Source of the DNA: Bacillota bacterium
GTDB lineage: Bacteria > Bacillota > Dethiobacteria > DTU022 > UBA8154
Direction: 5' to 3'
Assembly: GCA_012520035.1 (NCBI GenBank)
Contig: JAAYOY010000183.1
Location: 1-37,649 of the forward strand
Length of the DNA stretch: 37,649 nt
In this document: positions 482 to 9,256 of the stretch, one piece after another
Numbering within the stretch: the first letter of the stretch is position 1
Layout: each line of letters opens with the position of its first letter
Translations under genes and position numbers: made by a program
Notes under the pieces: model-generated
Database searches by the model: none
What the model was told of the DNA's origin: nothing
The model's input: the letters and a program-made list of their open reading frames with translations, nothing else

Positions 482-1066
482 TTACCGCCCTGAGCGGAGC
501 ACGACAGTGCCGAATATCTCTTGGGCTATCTCCTCAACGGTTTTTCCGGAAGTATCGACTGCCAGATCCGCCTGCCGGTAGAAAGGCCTCCTTTCCTGCA
601 GCAGTTCCCGGATTACTTTACAGGGATTAGCCACCCTAAGAAGCGGCCGGTTTTTTTTATATTTTATCCTGCGATAGGCCTCCTCCGCCGATACATCGAG
701 GTAAACAACAAGGCCGTTTTTTCTCATTGCAGCGATATTTTCTTCCCTCAGAACCGCCCCGCCTCCGGTGGAGACCACGCAGGTTCCCGGCGGTTTGTTT
801 CCCAGGATTCTTAAGGCTTCCGTTTCCCTGTTGCGGAAAAACTCTTCGCCGTAGCGCTTGAAGATTTCATTCACGCTCATTTTCTGTTCCCGGATTATCA
901 ATCCATCCGTATCAAAAAAATCTACTTTTAATAAATCAGCCAGCAGTATACCCACGCTGGTTTTTCCTGAGCCCATAAACCCTGTCAGAAAGATATTCTT
1001 TTTCAGCATGGGCTTAGCTGAAGAAAAGTCAATCCCCGCAGTTTTATCCCGATTAGAGTTAAGCAT
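482..1066 (-). CDS. aroK: Shikimate kinase
   Basis: NIFLTGFMGSGKTSVG P-loop, FFDTDGLI, STGGGAVLR motifs. Confidence 0.95.
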   Translation of the reverse strand: MLNSNRDKTAGIDFSSAKPMLKKNIFLTGFMGSGKTSVGILLADLLKVDFFDTDGLIIREQKMSVNEIFKRYGEEFFRNRETEALRILGNKPPGTCVVSTGGGAVLREENIAAMRKNGLVVYLDVSAEEAYRRIKYKKNRPLLRVANPCKVIRELLQERRPFYRQADLAVDTSGKTVEEIAQEIFGTVVLRSGR

Positions 1067-1114: not shown

Positions 1115-2014
1115 CTATTTCTGAAGATATTTCTTTTGGTTGTTTCTCAACGCATCCTGCATGACTTCCAAAGGTGCCTCTGCCCCGGTAAAAATTTCGA
1201 AAGCTTTTACTCCCTGTCCAAGGAGCATCCCCAGGCCGTCGATGTACGGAATACCTTCCGCCTTTGCCCACTTTTCAAAAGGTGTTTGCCTTTGCCCATA
1301 GCGCAGGTCTATCGCTGCAGAGCAACCCGGCAGGTTATCTGGGAGTAACAAACCCAGTTCAACAGGATCTTCGCTTAAGGCATTGATAATCCAGGTGATG
1401 CCTGAAATACTGCCCCTGCACAACTGCTTAAGACTAATAATATTGACCTGTTTTGCGTTGAAATAACCTCCCCGGGTTAGCAGTGCGGCCAGCATTTCAG
1501 CTTTACCGGTGGTTCGGTTGGCGATAAGCAGCGCTTTCACTTTAATCCTGCCCAGGGCAAGCGCAACAGCCTTTGCGGCACCTCCGGCCCCCATCAACAG
1601 GACTCTTGCTGTTGTAAAAGAATCTCCGAAATTATTCTGCAGCAGGTAGAGAAAACCGTCAACATCGGTATTATAGCCTGTTAGTTTTCCTTCCCTGTTT
1701 ACAATGGTATTAACTGCCCTCAAAAATGTCACTTCCGGGGAAAGTTCATGCAGAAAAGGAACCGCAGCTTCCTTATGCGGGGCAGTAATATTGACACCCT
1801 GCATGTTCAGGGAGATTATGGCCTTCATTGCCGCCGGGAGATCGTTTTTGTGCACAAGAAAAGGCAGGTAACAGTAGTTTAAACCTCTAGCCCTGAAGGC
1901 GGCATTATGCATCGCAGGGGAAAGCGAATGTTTTACCGGATCCCCGTAAATTCCCACTATTTTAGTGTTTCCGTTAATGGCTCCCGGCTCAGTTGTTTCA
2001 CCGTGAGGAAGCAT
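1115..2014 (-). CDS. aroE: Shikimate dehydrogenase
   Basis: GIYGDPVKHSLSPAMHNAAF, VNITAPHKE, GAGGAAKAVA motifs; position in aro operon. Confidence 0.95.
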   Translation of the reverse strand: MLPHGETTEPGAINGNTKIVGIYGDPVKHSLSPAMHNAAFRARGLNYCYLPFLVHKNDLPAAMKAIISLNMQGVNITAPHKEAAVPFLHELSPEVTFLRAVNTIVNREGKLTGYNTDVDGFLYLLQNNFGDSFTTARVLLMGAGGAAKAVALALGRIKVKALLIANRTTGKAEMLAALLTRGGYFNAKQVNIISLKQLCRGSISGITWIINALSEDPVELGLLLPDNLPGCSAAIDLRYGQRQTPFEKWAKAEGIPYIDGLGMLLGQGVKAFEIFTGAEAPLEVMQDALRNNQKKYLQK

Positions 2015-2038: not shown

Positions 2039-3178
2039 TTATAATAGTCCCCCGTCCAGGTATTCTTCTATAACCCTTTCTATCAGGGGTGCGGGAGGGG
2101 CCTTAAAGGCCGTTGTTTGGCCGAGAGCCGTAGGAAGGATGAAAACCAGCCCGTCTCCTTCTTTTTTCTTGTCATAAAACAAGGCTTCTGTAACGTCATT
2201 GAGGTTTAACCCTCCCGGAGGGGGAGGAACATGCAGCCGCTTGAGCAGGGCGATAATCCTTTGCCCAAAGGGCGGTTCCAGGATACCCAGCAGTACTGCC
2301 AGCCTGGCAGCCATGGCCATTCCGCAGGCAACAGCCTCTCCATGCAGATAATAACGAAAACCTGTTCCCGCTTCCAGGGCATGCCCGAAAGTATGTCCAA
2401 AGTTTAAAATACGGCGTAAATCTTTTTCCCTTTCGTCCTGACTGACTATTTCCCCTTTGATAATAACAGCGCGGATAATATACTTTAACAGCCGGGTACT
2501 GTTGCTCTCCAGAAAGTATTTTTTAGGGGAAAAATTTTTGCCGGCGAAAAGCGATAACTCCAACTTTTCAAAAAGCGTTTTATCCCGGATGATGCCGTAT
2601 TTAATCAGCTCGGACAGCCCGGCGTTAAATTCACGTTCCGGGAGGGTAATAAGGGTACTCTGGTCAGCCACCACCAGCGCGGGCTGGTAAAAAGCTCCGA
2701 TCAGATTTTTCCCCAGGGGGTGGTTTACAGCAACCTTGCCTCCTACACTGCTATCGACCATCGCCAGCAGCGTTGTTGGCAGCTGGACGCAGGGAACACC
2801 CCTTAAATAAGTGGCCGCCACAAATCCCGCAAGGTCTCCAATTACACCCCCGCCGAGAGCGATTATGATCGCAGACCTGTCCAATCCCGCCTCCAGGGCA
2901 GAGGAATAAAGGGCTGAGGCGGTCGCTAAAGATTTTTCCTTCTCCCCGCCTTCCAGCACTTCCAGGAAGGGCTGGAAACCTCTCTTTCGCAAACTCTCCA
3001 TGCACATTTCCCCGTAATGTGCGGCAACGTTTTTGTCACTTACTAACAGGGTTCTACAGGCGGGTAAATAGCTGGAGATTATCCTGCCAACATTGTTCAG
3101 TACTTTTTTACCCAGTAAAACTGGATAGGTTTTCTGTTCCGTTCTTATCTTTACTTTGTACAATATCTTTTCACCCAA
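2039..3178 (-). CDS. aroB: 3-dehydroquinate synthase
   Basis: GGGVIGDLAGFVAATYLRGVPCVQLPTTLLAMVDSSVGGKVAVNH and GHTFGHALE motifs. Confidence 0.96.
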   Translation of the reverse strand: MGEKILYKVKIRTEQKTYPVLLGKKVLNNVGRIISSYLPACRTLLVSDKNVAAHYGEMCMESLRKRGFQPFLEVLEGGEKEKSLATASALYSSALEAGLDRSAIIIALGGGVIGDLAGFVAATYLRGVPCVQLPTTLLAMVDSSVGGKVAVNHPLGKNLIGAFYQPALVVADQSTLITLPEREFNAGLSELIKYGIIRDKTLFEKLELSLFAGKNFSPKKYFLESNSTRLLKYIIRAVIIKGEIVSQDEREKDLRRILNFGHTFGHALEAGTGFRYYLHGEAVACGMAMAARLAVLLGILEPPFGQRIIALLKRLHVPPPPGGLNLNDVTEALFYDKKKEGDGLVFILPTALGQTTAFKAPPAPLIERVIEEYLDGGLL

Positions 3179-3201: not shown

Positions 3202-4422
3202 CTAGATATTCATCTTATTTTTCAGGTAACGCTGAACAAGTACCATGTAGTTTTGATAGGCCTGCTCTAATTCTATCATTGTGTCACCGGGGAATTTTTC
3301 CAGGAAAGCCCTGGCTATTTCCCAGGCGGTAACGGCTTCCCCCACCACTGAGGCCGCGGCAATTGCACAAATATCGGACCGTTCCACAGCGGCATTTCTT
3401 TCTTTGCCCGTAGCCAGATCTATGCTGGGCAAAGCCTTTCTCAGGGTCGGAATAGGTTTCATGGCAGCCCTTAAAATGAGGGGTTCGCCGTTGGTTATCC
3501 CCCCCTCAAGCCCCCCGGCATGGTTGGACGACCTCGAGATTTTCTTCTGCTCATCCCATAAAAAAGTATCGTGTATCAACGAACCGCTGCTTTCGGCAGC
3601 GCGAAAACCAAGCCCTATTTCAACGCCTTTAATACCGGGGATACTCATTAAAGCTCCGGCAAGACGCCCATCCAGACGCCTGTCCCAGTGAACATGGCTG
3701 CCCAGGCCGGGAGGGATGCCGTCCACCACGATCTCAAAAACCCCTCCTAAAGTATCCCCCGACTTTATAGCGCGGTCAATCTTCTCCAGCATAAGTTTTT
3801 CCGCTTCAGCATCAGTGCAGTAAAGAAGGGAGCCGGCCGTTTTTTCTTTAATTTCTCTTGCTTTTAAGTTTCGGTTTATTGTAGAAATCGCAATATCACC
3901 TACGGCGATAACATATCCGGCACTTTCAATGTGAAAATGCTTCAGCAATAGAGAGGCTATACTGCCGACAGCCACGCGCATGGCCGTTTCCCTGGCGCTG
4001 GCGCGCTCCAGAACATCGCGCAGATCGCGGTGTAAGTATTTCATCCCGCCGGCCAGATCGGCGTGTCCCGGGCGCGGGCTGCTGATTCTTTTTTCGGATG
4101 TCTTGTCCTGCGGCTTTACTGACATTATCTTCTGCCAGTTTGCCCAATCTTTGTTCTCAATTTCCAGCGTAAGGGGGGCGGCCGTTGTTTTCCCGAAACG
4201 CACACCGGACAGTATTTTCAGGCGATCCTTTTCTATAGCCATACGCCCTCCCCTGCCGTAGCCGCCCTGACGTCTGGAGAGTTGCTGGTTGATGTAATCT
4301 TCTTCGATTTCCAGGCCTGCCGGCAGCCCTTCAATAATACCCACCAGCGCCGGGCCGTGAGATTCACCTGCGGATAAATATCGCATCTTTATGATGGCAG
4401 GAAGTATCAACCTGTTATGCAA
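3202..4422 (-). CDS. aroC: Chorismate synthase
   Basis: MRYLSAGESHGPALVGIIEGLPAG; SPRPGHADLAGGMKY; RASARETAMRVAVG motifs. The true start may be the MRYLS methionine, about 12 codons into the ORF. Confidence 0.95.
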   Translation of the reverse strand: MHNRLILPAIIKMRYLSAGESHGPALVGIIEGLPAGLEIEEDYINQQLSRRQGGYGRGGRMAIEKDRLKILSGVRFGKTTAAPLTLEIENKDWANWQKIMSVKPQDKTSEKRISSPRPGHADLAGGMKYLHRDLRDVLERASARETAMRVAVGSIASLLLKHFHIESAGYVIAVGDIAISTINRNLKAREIKEKTAGSLLYCTDAEAEKLMLEKIDRAIKSGDTLGGVFEIVVDGIPPGLGSHVHWDRRLDGRLAGALMSIPGIKGVEIGLGFRAAESSGSLIHDTFLWDEQKKISRSSNHAGGLEGGITNGEPLILRAAMKPIPTLRKALPSIDLATGKERNAAVERSDICAIAAASVVGEAVTAWEIARAFLEKFPGDTMIELEQAYQNYMVLVQRYLKNKMNI

Positions 4423-4470: not shown

Positions 4471-5343
4471 TCAATAAAAGGAGCGTCTCCACAATCTCCC
4501 TTGGGTAAGCTTTTTTGCAACCTCTATTTCATTTTCTTTTTGTATATGGCCATATAGTTCATTTAACTCTTCCAAAAAAAGATTAAGAGCATTACTTAAA
4601 TTATCTTTATTTGTGGAAAAGATATCGGACCACATAGACGGTTCGCCCATGGCAATGCGGGTTGTATCTTTAAAACCGTTTCCGGTAAAAGCAGGGAGTT
4701 GCTCCTGCTTAAAGCCGCTATTTTTCAAAGCGTTGACCAAAGTAACTGCAACCAGGTGCGGAAGGTGGCTGGTCAGGGCTACGAGCCTGTCGTGTTCCTG
4801 CGGATCTACGACAAATGGGAGCGCTTTGATTGTTCGGATGGCCTCCTGCAGCTTATCCAGCGCCTCCTGTGATGTCCCCCGCGCAGGAGTTAACAGGTAA
4901 ACGGAATTTTCCAGCAGAGCAGCATCTGCCACTGCGATACCGGACTGTTCCGAACCGGACATTGGGTGGCCGCCAATGCCGGTTACTCCTTGCGGCAGAA
5001 TCTTTCCCATTGCATCAACAATCATTTTTTTGGTGCTTCCAACGTCGGTAACCAGCACGCCCTGTTGAAGAAACGGGGCGATAACCTTCAGGATTTTAAT
5101 TGTTTGCTTAACCGGCGTGGAGATGATTACCAGTTCGGCATCCTTTAAAACCCTCCGCAACCCGGCGGTTTTATCCACAGCACCCTTTTCCACCGCTTTT
5201 TGCATAGCGTGAATATCTATATCATATCCCCAGCGTTCCTCTACCACATGGTATTTCCCCAGAGCCAATCCCATAGACCCTCCGATAAGACCCAGCCCCA
5301 GAATACAGCATTTTTCAAACAACGGCTTACAAGGTCCGGCCAA
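4471..5343 (-). CDS. tyrA: Prephenate dehydrogenase, apparently without a C-terminal ACT domain
   Basis: GLGLIGGSMGLAL Rossmann motif, GGHPMSGSEQSG, LTSHLPHLVA, GFKDTTRIA motifs; the 290-aa protein ends soon after the catalytic region. Confidence 0.93.
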   Translation of the reverse strand: MAGPCKPLFEKCCILGLGLIGGSMGLALGKYHVVEERWGYDIDIHAMQKAVEKGAVDKTAGLRRVLKDAELVIISTPVKQTIKILKVIAPFLQQGVLVTDVGSTKKMIVDAMGKILPQGVTGIGGHPMSGSEQSGIAVADAALLENSVYLLTPARGTSQEALDKLQEAIRTIKALPFVVDPQEHDRLVALTSHLPHLVAVTLVNALKNSGFKQEQLPAFTGNGFKDTTRIAMGEPSMWSDIFSTNKDNLSNALNLFLEELNELYGHIQKENEIEVAKKLTQGRLWRRSFY

Positions 5344-6337
5344 CGCTCTGCGCCACCCCTCTCAGCGGTTCCAGCATCTGCGCAAATCTTTGTGGAATCA
5401 GCGACTGGGAACCGTCGCAAAGGGCCTCTTCGGGAGAGGGATGCACCTCTACCAGCAGCCCATCAGCTCCGGCAGCAATTGCAGCCAGGCACATGGATGG
5501 AACCCATTTCCATTTCCCCGTTCCATGGCTGGGATCAACAAAAACAGGCAGGTGGCTCAGTTCTTTTGCTATGGGTACAGCGCTGATATCAAGGGTGTTG
5601 CGGGTGTATGTTTCAAATGTGCGTATCCCTCTTTCACAGAGAATAACGCGTTCATTCCCGCTTAAGAGAAGGTACTCCGCTGCCATTAACCATTCTTCAA
5701 TTGTGGCCGACATTCCTCTTTTAAGCAGGACAGGTTTATTCAGCTGTCCCAATTCTTTCAGCAGCTTAAAATTTTGCATATTGCGCGCGCCAACCTGAAT
5801 GATGTCAGCGCATTCGGCAACGGTATCTATGGAGTGTTGATCCAGCACTTCGGTGATCAAGGGAAGCCCTGTTAACTTCCTGGCTTCAACCATTATTTTT
5901 AACCCCTCTTCTTCAAGACCCTGAAAGCTGTAAGGCGATGAGCGAGGCTTATATGCCCCTCCTCTTAAAATATCCGCTCCTGCATTTTTAACCAATTCAG
6001 CCGCTTGAAGATAAGATTCCCCCTCTACTGCACACGGGCCGGCAATAAGGACGATTTTTTCACCGCCGATTTCTACATCTCCTACCTTGAAAACAGTCTT
6101 TTCCCTTTTAAACTCCCGGCTAACAAGCATATAAGGTGGGGAAACAAGCACCACTTTTTCTACAGAGGGTATTCCCTCCAATAGCTCTTTAACATCTTCT
6201 CTGGGTAAACCTATGGCCCCTAAGATGGTGCGTTTTTCTCCGGTGGAACGGTGAACGCTATATCCAAATTCTTTTACTTTTTCCTCTACCTCCAGGATGT
6301 TTTCTTCATCTGCGCCTAAATTCATAACAATAATCAT
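5327..6337 (-). CDS. aroF: 3-deoxy-7-phosphoheptulonate (DAHP) synthase with N-terminal ferredoxin-like regulatory domain; Tyr-T-box copy
   Basis: VLIAGPCAVEGE, LRGGAYKPRSSPYSFQGL, QVGARNMQNF, DPSHGTGK motifs. ORF extends to 6358; I prefer the ATG at 6337 (AAGGGGA Shine-Dalgarno). The 3' end overlaps the tyrA start by 17 nt. Confidence 0.95.
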   Translation of the reverse strand: MIIVMNLGADEENILEVEEKVKEFGYSVHRSTGEKRTILGAIGLPREDVKELLEGIPSVEKVVLVSPPYMLVSREFKREKTVFKVGDVEIGGEKIVLIAGPCAVEGESYLQAAELVKNAGADILRGGAYKPRSSPYSFQGLEEEGLKIMVEARKLTGLPLITEVLDQHSIDTVAECADIIQVGARNMQNFKLLKELGQLNKPVLLKRGMSATIEEWLMAAEYLLLSGNERVILCERGIRTFETYTRNTLDISAVPIAKELSHLPVFVDPSHGTGKWKWVPSMCLAAIAAGADGLLVEVHPSPEEALCDGSQSLIPQRFAQMLEPLRGVAQSVGRTL

Positions 6338-6441
6338 GAGCATCTTCCCCTTTTCCATTTATTCTTTTATCATTGCAACATAAGCAGCTTATCAAAAACC
6401 TTTTAGGCAAATAGCAAACCATTATTCACCGCAAAATAAAA

Positions 6442-6466
6442 ACTTCCGCCCCATAGGGACGGAAGT
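6442..6466 (-). terminator. Intrinsic terminator of the tyrosine T-box leader
   Basis: Minus strand ACTTCCG(T)CCC-TATG-GGG-CGGAAGT followed by TTTTTATTTT. Confidence 0.85.
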
Positions 6467-6757
6467 ATAACTTCACGCGGTACCACCCTGGTTAGGCTAA
6501 ACTAGAATAGAAGCCTCCCTCTTAAAGGGTACGGACCGTAAGAAACCCGGCCTTATACCCCCTCCCTTTTAACGGCGGGAGTCTCCGTCAAAGCCTACTC
6601 ACCGGAATGAATAGTCGCTGGCTGGTTTTCGGTTTGCTTTTCAGGGGTGTATTTCGGCAACTTACGACACCGGGTCACACCTTCCCCCGGCTCTCTGCAG
6701 TCGATCAGAATGCTTACTTATCCCCGTCATCAGTTTTTTCGTGTTACTTATGTTGTC
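6442..6757 (-). promoter_or_regulatory. T-box riboswitch leader, predicted tyrosine (UAC specifier), upstream of aroF-tyrA
   Basis: Minus strand: CTGCAGAGAGCCGGGGG (Stem I start), specifier loop GCCGAAA-UAC-ACCCCUGAA (UAC at 6651-6649), T-box sequence AGGGTGGTACCGCG (6489-6476), overlapping terminator. Confidence 0.9.
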
Positions 6758-6761
6758 CAAC

Positions 6762-6790
6762 ATTTTATCCATTATTAGATTTAATGTCAA
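6762..6790 (-). promoter_or_regulatory. Sigma-A promoter for the Tyr T-box aro operon
   Basis: Minus strand TTGACA-N17-TAAAAT (-35 at 6790-6785, -10 at 6767-6762). Confidence 0.85.
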
Positions 6791-6833
6791 GGATTATTTC
6801 GGGATTTTTCTCCGGAGAAACAAAAAAATTTAG

Positions 6834-6863
6834 TTGACACCGGCTGGTTACTTATGCTAAGAT
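6834..6863 (+). promoter_or_regulatory. Sigma-A promoter for the Phe T-box aroF-pheA operon
   Basis: TTGACA-N18-TAAGAT (-35 at 6834-6839, -10 at 6858-6863). Confidence 0.82.
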
Positions 6864-6869
6864 ATGAAA

Positions 6870-7183
6870 AAATATTAAAATAGTAATGGTAATGAAAGAG
6901 GAAAGTAAACTGGTAATGTAAGCTACAGAGAGGCGGGGCCGTGGCTGAAAGTCCTGCTGGCTAAACACCCGGTTGAAGTTCCCTCTGGAGCTGCAGGCTG
7001 AAACCCATTTTATTAAAGGTTACCGGGTAAGTAGGCTGTGCCGGTTTTTTCAACCGTTAAAAGCGAAACAGGAATCGGATTCTTTAAACGGAATCCCGCT
7101 CCTGACAGAGTGGGCTTATTTTGGCCAACCAGGGTGGTACCGCGGAAACGACTTTCTGTCCCTCAGGGCAGAAAGTTTTTTTT
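6870..7183 (+). promoter_or_regulatory. T-box riboswitch leader, predicted phenylalanine (UUC specifier), upstream of aroF-pheA
   Basis: Stem I 'acagagaggcgggg', specifier loop GTTGAAG-TTC-CCTCTGGAGCTGC (TTC at 6979-6981), T-box AGGGTGGTACCGCG (7131-7144), overlapping terminator. Confidence 0.9.
7151..7183 (+). terminator. Intrinsic terminator of the phenylalanine T-box leader
   Basis: ACTTTCTGTCCCT-CAGGGCAGAAAGTTTTTTTT. Confidence 0.87.
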
Positions 7184-7256
7184 ATAAGTTTACACTTTCG
7201 CCCCTGCGATCGTGTAAACTTTTTATTTTACCTAAAAATTTCAGGGAGTGATAATA

Positions 7257-8315
7257 TTGATCTTAATGATGAAACGCGAAGCGGATAAAACGGCAGTAAA
7301 CAGGGTTGAAAAGCAACTGGAGCAAATGGGCTGCCGTTCTGTGACCATCAGAAGCAGCGAAGGGGTCATTATCAGCGTAACAGGTGGAAACAGGTCGGAA
7401 TGCCTGCAGGACCTTGCCCTGCTCCCGGAGATTGAAAGGGTTATAGATGTTACGGTTCCCTACAAACTTGCCAGCAGAGAAATTAAAAAGGAAAAAAGCA
7501 TGCTGGACCTTCAGGATGGGGTAAGCATAGGCGGCAAAGAGGTAATTGTAATGGCCGGACCCTGTGCCGTAGAAAGCGAAAAAATGCTTTTTACTATTGC
7601 AGAGCAGGTTGCCCGCGCAGGTGCACGGGTCCTGCGCGGCGGAGCATTTAAGCCCAGGACATCCCCCTACAGCTTCCAGGGCCTGGAAGAAAAAGGGCTA
7701 AAAATCCTGGCGGAAGCCGGGAAAAGAACTGGGCTTAAGATTGTTACCGAGGTAATCAGTCCCCAGGACGTGGAACTGGTTGCCTGTTACGCTGATATTT
7801 TGCAGGTAGGCGCCCGCAATATGCAAAACTATTCCCTGTTGCGCAAGCTGGGGAAACAGCAGAAGCCGGTATTATTAAAAAGAGGCTTTTCGGCTACTAT
7901 CGAGGAATGGCTTATGTCTGCGGAATACATCCTGGCAGAAGGGAATTTTAACGTAATTCTTTGTGAAAGAGGGATACGCACATTTGAAACATACACCCGC
8001 AACACTTTGGATATCAGCGCCGTTCCGCTTGTGAAGAATTTGAGTCATCTGCCTGTAATTGTGGATCCCAGCCACAGCAGCGGGGACAGCAGGCTTGTAC
8101 CGGCACTTTCCAGGGCGGCGATCGCTTCCGGAGCCGATGGTCTCTTAATTGAAGTTCATCCGCACCCGGAAGAGGCTTTCTGCGATGGGAATCAATCATT
8201 AAACCCCAGGGAATTTCAATTATTAATGAATGACCTGGCAGATTTCACCAGGGCATGTGAACGTACGCTTAATACAGATAATCTTTCGGCAAAGAATTTT
8301 GTTAAGGCAATCTGA
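7257..8315 (+). CDS. aroF: DAHP synthase with N-terminal ferredoxin-like domain; Phe-T-box paralogue
   Basis: VMAGPCAVESE, LRGGAFKPRTSPYSFQGL, QVGARNMQNYS, DPSHSSGD motifs. ORF extends to GTG 7248; TTG at 7257 has better spacing from AGGGAG. Confidence 0.94.
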   Translation: MILMMKREADKTAVNRVEKQLEQMGCRSVTIRSSEGVIISVTGGNRSECLQDLALLPEIERVIDVTVPYKLASREIKKEKSMLDLQDGVSIGGKEVIVMAGPCAVESEKMLFTIAEQVARAGARVLRGGAFKPRTSPYSFQGLEEKGLKILAEAGKRTGLKIVTEVISPQDVELVACYADILQVGARNMQNYSLLRKLGKQQKPVLLKRGFSATIEEWLMSAEYILAEGNFNVILCERGIRTFETYTRNTLDISAVPLVKNLSHLPVIVDPSHSSGDSRLVPALSRAAIASGADGLLIEVHPHPEEAFCDGNQSLNPREFQLLMNDLADFTRACERTLNTDNLSAKNFVKAI

Positions 8316-8422
8316 CCGGTTGATTGATCCGGCGCCGGTTATACTTGCCGGGCATATATACTAGCCGGCAGTGTAATCTAAATAAATATCACAAAAAGGT
8401 TACTACAGGAGATGATGCTAAC

Positions 8423-9256
8423 ATGGGCAAAATACTTGGTTACCTGGGCCCCCCGGGAACGTTTACAGAAGAAGTATCCATAAAATATGCCGGGGATAAG
8501 GATTTATTGCTTAAATCCTTCCCTGCTCTGGATCAGGTGTTCAGCGCTGTTATGCGCAAAGAAATAGAGTACGGGGTAGTACCTGTAGAAAACTCGCTGG
8601 AGGGATCGGTCAGCCTTACCCATGATCTTCTTTCCAATTCCCGGGTGAAAATACAAGGCGAGCTGCTTTTCCGGGTAAGGCAATTTCTCCTGGCACGCCC
8701 GGGTCAAAAACCCTCCCATATCCGGGAAATCTGTTCCCATCCTCAAGCCCTGGCCCAGTGCCGCTTATACCTGGATAAATTTTATCCCGGAAGGCCGCGG
8801 ATCAACAGCTCAAGCACAGCCGAGGCTGCCGCTGTGGCGTCGCAGAATGACGGAAAAGCTGCGATAGCTTCTTTACGTGCAGCAGAACTGTACGGCCTTG
8901 AAATACTCCAGGGCAACATCCAGGATGAATCATCCAACATCACCCGTTTTCTTCTACTTGCCCTGGACGACGCGCCTCCTACAGGAAAAGATAAAACGTC
9001 TTTATTGGTCGGGCTGGACGACAAGCCGGGAACCCTTTACTCAATACTGGGCATTTTTGCCCGTTACAGTCTTAACCTGACCAAGATTGAATCCCGCCCC
9101 ATCAAGGGTGAGTTAGGAAAATATATCTTTTTCCTGGATTTTGCAGGGCACCGGAAAGATGATACAGTAGCCCGGGCTTTACTGGAAGCAGAAAAACAGG
9201 CGGTATTTTTAAAAGTACTGGGAAGTTACCCGCGTGCGGAAAAAGATGACTGTTGA
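8423..9256 (+). CDS. pheA: Prephenate dehydratase with C-terminal ACT domain
   Basis: GYLGPPGTFTEEVSIKY start after AGGAG; VVPVENSLEGSV; SSNITRFLLL; ACT region LLVGLDDKPGTLYSIL...LTKIESRPIKGELGKYIFFLDF. The annotated ORF start at 8324 is an upstream in-frame extension. Confidence 0.95.
   Translation: MGKILGYLGPPGTFTEEVSIKYAGDKDLLLKSFPALDQVFSAVMRKEIEYGVVPVENSLEGSVSLTHDLLSNSRVKIQGELLFRVRQFLLARPGQKPSHIREICSHPQALAQCRLYLDKFYPGRPRINSSSTAEAAAVASQNDGKAAIASLRAAELYGLEILQGNIQDESSNITRFLLLALDDAPPTGKDKTSLLVGLDDKPGTLYSILGIFARYSLNLTKIESRPIKGELGKYIFFLDFAGHRKDDTVARALLEAEKQAVFLKVLGSYPRAEKDDC

Follow-up and report, generated by a model that had tools for sequence, protein, structure and literature searches.

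Divergent tyrosine and phenylalanine T-box leaders of two DAHP synthase operons and a candidate two-sensor leader in related Bacillota

Results

Gene content and T-box leaders of the divergent locus

The window, namely the whole stretch of 37,649 bases analysed here, harbors two divergent operons, each of which starts with a T-box leader followed by an aroF gene encoding a DAHP synthase of type I-beta (Table 1). The gene order behind the UAC leader on the minus strand is aroF-tyrA-aroC-aroB-aroE-aroK, and that behind the UUC leader on the plus strand is aroF-pheA. A previous sequence-only reading had assigned aroF-tyrA and most shikimate-pathway genes to the minus leader, and aroF-pheA to the plus leader. 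The family assignments confirmed all six genes of the former, among which aroA (EPSP synthase) is absent, as well as the DAHP synthase and the prephenate dehydratase of the latter. Both AroF proteins score above the curated cut-off of TIGR01361 (267.75 bits), and they are the only DAHP synthases found in this genome. Judging from these protein families, the ferredoxin-like regulatory domain of both AroFs and the ACT domain of PheA make feedback inhibition at the enzyme level a probable further layer of control.

A cmscan search of the window against Rfam yielded exactly two matches, both to the T-box family RF00230 above the gathering score, and both exceed the curated cut-off of 93 bits. The two leaders lie back to back, with their 5' ends separated by 143 bases; the T-boxes proper occupy positions 6452-7166, and the span of 6442-7183 includes the terminators in addition. 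Both leaders display the landmarks of Stem I with its AGAGA motif and specifier loop, a IIA/B element, the T-box sequence and a terminator, and AGGGTGGTACCGCG is present in both.

Table 1. Features of the divergent aro locus, with positions in the window.
Feature	Position	Strand	Evidence
aroK, shikimate kinase	482..1066	minus	PF01202 161 bits
aroE, shikimate dehydrogenase	1115..2014	minus	TIGR00507 223.7 bits
aroB, 3-dehydroquinate synthase	2039..3178	minus	TIGR01357 351 bits
aroC, chorismate synthase	3202..4422	minus	TIGR00033 388 bits
tyrA, prephenate dehydrogenase	4471..5343	minus	PF02153, PF20463
aroF, DAHP synthase type I-beta with ferredoxin-like regulatory domain, Tyr-branch paralogue	5327..6358	minus	TIGR01361 394 bits; PF00793, PF18152
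Tyr leader, intrinsic terminator competing with the antiterminator	6442..6466	minus	11-pair stem, 7 GC, T-run
Tyr leader, T-box sequence AGGGUGGUACCGCG, bulge UGGU	6476..6489	minus	sequence, motif scan
Tyr T-box leader, specifier UAC	6739-6452	minus	RF00230 108.9 bits, E=2.2e-23, model 1-219
Tyr leader, Stem I	6622-6739	minus	Stem I model 113.4 bits
Tyr leader, specifier codon UAC in context CCGAAA-UAC-ACC	6651-6649	minus	column alignment to RF00230 and A1/A2
Tyr leader, promoter-like site TTGACA-N17-TAAAAT	6762..6790	minus	11/12 consensus
Phe leader, promoter-like site TTGACA-N18-TAAGAT, extended -10 (TG)	6834..6863	plus	10/12 consensus
Phe T-box leader, specifier UUC	6883-7166	plus	RF00230 100.5 bits, E=3.4e-21, model 1-219
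Phe leader, Stem I	6883-7008	plus	Stem I model 70.3 bits
Phe leader, specifier codon UUC in context UUGAAG-UUC-CCU	6979-6981	plus	column alignment to RF00230 and A1/A2
Phe leader, T-box sequence AGGGUGGUACCGCG, bulge UGGU	7131..7144	plus	sequence, motif scan
Phe leader, intrinsic terminator competing with the antiterminator	7150..7177	plus	12-pair stem, T-run; -22.5 kcal/mol stretch
Second hairpin and T-run between Phe T-box terminator and aroF	7186..7221	plus	-17.2 kcal/mol
aroF, DAHP synthase type I-beta, Phe-branch paralogue	7248..8315	plus	TIGR01361 403.5 bits; PF00793, PF18152
pheA, prephenate dehydratase with ACT domain	8324..9256	plus	PF00800, PF01842

The specifier codons agree with the downstream genes, UAC with aroF-tyrA and UUC with aroF-pheA. 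As a control, the same columns were read in the nine other T-boxes of this genome, and eight of them gave a codon that fits the downstream gene: AUC for ileS, CUC for leuA, UUC for pheS, UGG for a trpB-like gene, CGC for argC, GUC for ilvE, UGC for cysS and GGA for glyQ. The ninth (L009; C62:2056-2337, minus strand) is a UUC T-box in front of an acyl-CoA ligase gene, an odd target for a Phe sensor. It is hardly conceivable that the specifiers were misread or that the two leaders respond to one and the same tRNA: nothing was found that speaks for it, and misreading was rejected on the eight correctly read T-boxes.

The sequence-only reading of two complete T-boxes with a Tyr and a Phe specifier is upheld by the full-length RF00230 matches and by the covariance-model alignment, which placed no other codon in either specifier loop and no common tRNA on the two leaders. 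Its further points, competing terminators and a UGGU bulge suited to tRNAs with an A discriminator, also stand: each leader has a hairpin followed by a T-run, and the tRNA-Tyr(GTA) and tRNA-Phe(GAA) of this genome both carry discriminator A and end in ACCA, so that the UGGU bulge suits both leaders.

The hairpin located between the Phe terminator and aroF is possibly a second terminator. Its 5' arm and loop (CACTTTCGTCCCT-like) are similar to the 3' strand of the antiterminator, and comparable hairpins are found 3' of the Phe T-boxes in L124, L132, L143, L145 and L255.

Age of the paralogue pair

In a survey of the class, 98 genomes, nearly all of them draft assemblies of varying completeness, were searched for DAHP synthases, the DNA around about 120 of which was examined and the neighboring genes mapped. 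Stem I domains were located with a model built from 26 T-boxes. The detected leaders comprise 38 of aroF-tyrA with UAC, 27 of aroF-pheA with UUC and eight with UUC plus UAC; the crossed pairings, aroF-tyrA with UUC alone or aroF-pheA with UAC, do not occur among the detected leaders of the 98 genomes. Across the class, the UAC-led aroF-tyrA and the UUC-led aroF-pheA are usually located at separate loci. In the AroF tree, one branch with an SH-aLRT support of 100% separates all AroFs of UAC/tyrA and dual type (39 rows) from all those of UUC/pheA type. In several more distant Bacillota loci, too, an aroF relative is preceded by this UUC leader.

The sequence-only reading had interpreted the locus as a duplication-and-specialisation event. 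In that case, aroF and its T-box would have been duplicated within this lineage and one copy turned from Tyr to Phe, and indeed the two paralogues and their T-boxes adjoin each other and both AroFs belong to one family. However, the window paralogues share merely 55% identity, each AroF groups with the same-branch AroFs of other genera and families instead of its neighbor, and the linkage of UAC with tyrA and of UUC with pheA extends over the class. We therefore rejected a recent local duplication on the AroF tree and the identity, and consider any lineage-local origin of the pair very improbable. Altogether, the class-wide linkage of specifiers and genes and the fully supported AroF branch indicate that the Tyr/Phe split is older than the class and not an event at the window locus; what is local to the window lineage is only the divergent adjacency.

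Leaders with two Stem I domains in related genomes

In nine genomes, the leader contains two Stem I domains in series, of which the first has the specifier UUC (Phe) and the second UAC (Tyr). These dual leaders, found in G003 (L129), G005 (L130), G009 (L134), G012 (L139), G013 (L259), G016 (L141), G017 (L142), G019 (L143) and G046 (L177), precede a Tyr-type aroF and are distributed across several genera. The two Stem I matches are connected by a linker of 29-87 nt, and the specifier loops are separate, at a distance of 147-205 nt. In all nine, promoter-like sites (best spacer, 17 nt) are located only upstream of the Phe Stem I, and neither a T-run nor a promoter-like site lies between the two Stem I domains. 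Moreover, each of the nine has one T-box motif and one antiterminator-terminator. Dual leaders thus do not consist of two complete units with an antiterminator and terminator each, as in tandem T-boxes, nor do they have overlapping codons within one loop, as in the two-codon T-box.

The upstream Phe Stem I is well conserved. Across eight aligned dual leaders, the identity is 78% in the Phe Stem I and 81% in the Tyr Stem I, compared to 36% in the linker and 32% in the upstream control DNA. The UUC specifier is invariant in all dual leaders, and 11 of the 27 predicted pairs of the Phe Stem I show at least one two-sided change that preserves pairing (eight dual leaders plus G020). The conservation of Stem I relative to the linker, together with the compensatory changes, indicates that the upstream Phe Stem I is under structural selection. 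Of the Stem II that follows it, the 5' strand is kept and the usual 3' strand is mostly absent. A minimum-energy fold of one whole dual leader does not resolve the Stem I domains. In the dual-leader genomes, every tRNA-Phe and tRNA-Tyr with a recovered 3' end has discriminator A, and a single UGGU bulge could therefore accept either of them.

A hairpin of the pattern GGUAU..GGCNGG....CNGUCCGUACC is located between Stem II and Stem III in L129, L130, L134, L139, L141, L142, L143, L177 and L256. It is present in two copies in dual leaders, and usually in one copy or none in single leaders. Its copy number as a perfect companion of the sensor number was rejected on G004, which has one Stem I and two hairpins; the doubling thus marks only dual ancestry.

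Across 399 genomes of the phylum, a search for the UUC...UAC pattern returned 15 matches, of which only that in G003 lies in a T-box leader; the stretches printed for the other matches contain no Stem I. In the minus leader of the window, the DNA from the promoter to Stem I shows no remnant of a Phe Stem I.

Sensor content and pathway content

For comparison of sensors with the pathway, tyrA, pheA and DAHP synthases were searched genome-wide. A Tyr-only leader together with a separate Phe-branch aroF is found in G000 (the window genome), G001, G002, G007, G011 and G021. G010 has a Tyr-only leader as well, and no pheA was found in its genome-wide search. A dual leader, with pheA present and no Phe-branch aroF, is found in G003, G009, G012, G016, G017, G019 and G046; in G012 and G046, pheA is on the strand of the dual-led aro genes and downstream of them, and G016 retains a remnant of the Phe-branch aroF between a Phe T-box and pheA. 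G004 and G020 have a Phe-only leader: aroF is present, tyrA is absent and the Tyr Stem I is lost.

Exceptions occur, and among these genomes G013, which has a dual leader, is only 69% complete. G005 has a dual leader although it retains the Phe-branch aroF. By contrast, only a Tyr leader is present in G006, a sister species from the same genus as the window, even though a stub of about 40 N-terminal codons between the Phe T-box and pheA (L124:4740-4800, minus strand) is all that is left of its Phe-branch aroF. G050 keeps pheA with a Tyr-only leader, from which the Phe Stem I has been deleted: only its 5' end survives, and ~100 nt are missing between this end and the Tyr Stem I (L168:7200-7300, minus strand). 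The states of G006 and G050 look like recent changes. A strict rule, by which a leader is dual if and only if the Phe-branch aroF is missing, was rejected: a dual leader and the Phe-branch aroF occur together in G005, and both are missing in G006 and G050.

Fisher tests of sensor against pathway content gave p = 0.0055 and 0.0053, values that are not independent of kinship among the genomes. In paired comparisons on the tree, the Tyr Stem I was lost twice, both times along with tyrA, and two events do not suffice for a test. The sensors present follow the pathway genes, with dual leaders mostly where pheA has lost its own aroF.

Other arrangements were observed in two of the dual-leader genomes. 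In G009, a divergent pheA leader (L134:7709-7870, plus strand) lacks Stem I altogether; it comprises a promoter, a hairpin resembling Stem III, a T-box (UGGC) and a terminator. The same genome has a further Tyr-type aroF after a trpB-like gene, between two UGG (Trp) T-boxes (L135:6231-8737, minus strand), with trp genes downstream. G046 (L254) has a decayed aroF after a UGG T-box.

Discussion

Proposed mechanism

We are highly confident that the window holds two independent, divergent T-boxes for Tyr and Phe in front of an ancient paralogue pair, and that it represents one state of an evolving control region. Uncharged tRNA-Tyr would pair with UAC of the minus leader through its anticodon and with the UGGU bulge through its NCCA end; the antiterminator would thereby be stabilised, and RNA polymerase could read into aroF-tyrA-aroCBEK. 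Uncharged tRNA-Phe would act likewise on aroF-pheA through its UUC leader, so that each end product would switch on its own DAHP synthase and its own terminal branch enzyme. The proposal of the sequence-only reading that each branch has a first enzyme gated by its own tRNA gains support from the specifier-matched T-box in front of each paralogue.

Among the relatives, where pheA no longer has an aroF to itself, the Tyr leader carries an additional Phe Stem I on its upstream side. Each Stem I may catch its own uncharged tRNA, whose 3' end would then dock in the common bulge, and transcription would go on if Phe or Tyr is short. A first enzyme shared by both branches needs such OR logic, whereas a tandem of two complete T-boxes would respond only when both amino acids are short. 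We moderately favor the reading in which the dual leader, with UUC and UAC on one antiterminator, is a natural tRNA-Phe OR tRNA-Tyr gate on the shared first enzyme, whose sensors are gained or dropped along with the Phe-branch aroF and tyrA; the window would be the split alternative, with one sensor per enzyme copy. The OR logic is suggested by the single bulge and by the existence of Phe-only and Tyr-only derivatives.

The upstream Phe Stem I might instead be the idle relic of a complete Phe T-box. No separate antiterminator belongs to it, its Stem II shows no clear conservation in the 3' half, and G050 has lost most of this Stem I yet keeps pheA. Nevertheless, an idle element accords poorly with the invariant UUC, with an identity more than that of the adjacent linker and with the compensatory changes described above. 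Moreover, the Phe Stem I is the sole Stem I left in the two tyrA-less genomes, G004 and G020, where it is not idle unless the whole leader is dead. We thus regard a relic as improbable.

A functional upstream Stem I does not by itself make an OR gate, and the leader might need both tRNAs, or the upstream Stem I might tune or compete with the downstream one. Two Stem I domains on one antiterminator have no known structure or function, and the second hairpin before Stem III in dual leaders makes cross-talk possible. Against this, a single T-box bulge can hold one tRNA 3' end at a time, and either Stem I is found alone in derivatives of this leader, that for Phe in G004 and G020 and that for Tyr in G050; hence neither sensor looks obligatory for the other. 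A leader of this non-OR kind is unlikely, albeit with a real chance of being correct. The OR gate on a shared first enzyme remains our preferred reading of the dual leader.

The window pair by itself is a clean yet ordinary usage of T-boxes. Less ordinary is a leader with two tRNA sensors and one output that is conserved over several genera and has natural single-sensor derivatives. Together with the split form of the window, the dual leader and its derivatives with only one sensor make up a comparative series on how two sensors may share one antiterminator, and on how the control of a branched pathway is rewired upon loss of a paralogue.

Comparison with known systems

T-box control of tyrosine biosynthesis has been reported (PMC2494555). 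The window leaders have all landmarks in common with the transcription-terminating RF00230 T-boxes of Bacillus subtilis tyrS and the tyrosine operon of the B. cereus group, and differ only in the divergent placement, whereas those of the relatives have a second Stem I in front. The two-codon T-box of Clostridium acetobutylicum has overlapping codons for two tRNAs (Saad et al. 2013, described in PMC4052509). It resembles the dual leader in that one leader is meant for two tRNAs, but its codons overlap in one loop, compared to two whole Stem I domains with specifier and distal loops of their own in the dual leader.

Tandem complete T-boxes are also known, and their mode of action has been called unresolved (PMC7583486). 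Similar to dual leaders, they place two tRNA sensors before one operon; however, each unit has its own terminator and the logic is AND-like, in contrast to the single T-box motif and single terminator of dual leaders. A survey of contiguous riboswitches describes T-box arrangements as tandemly arranged units (PMC12452182). Riboswitches with adjacent aptamers, such as those for glycine and the guanine/PRPP IMPLY gate, share with dual leaders the combination of two sensors with one expression platform (PMC9481103, PMC12452182). They differ in that each sensor of a dual leader is an ON sensor with a tRNA as its ligand; in addition, the dual-leader linker is longer than the 20-nt cut of PMC12452182. 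A 2022 review of tandem riboswitches listed OR among the logic gates unobserved in nature, and suggested that two interacting ON switches could form an OR gate (PMC9481103). In the literature covered, no leader was described in which two Stem I domains share an antiterminator, although earlier T-box surveys may mention one.

What appears to be new is the class-wide picture of sensors that are doubled, split and lost according to pathway content. T-boxes with a duplicated terminator-antiterminator were reportedly described by Vitreschak and colleagues in 2008. Both these and the dual leaders are partial duplications, which concern the expression platform in the former and the sensor in the latter.
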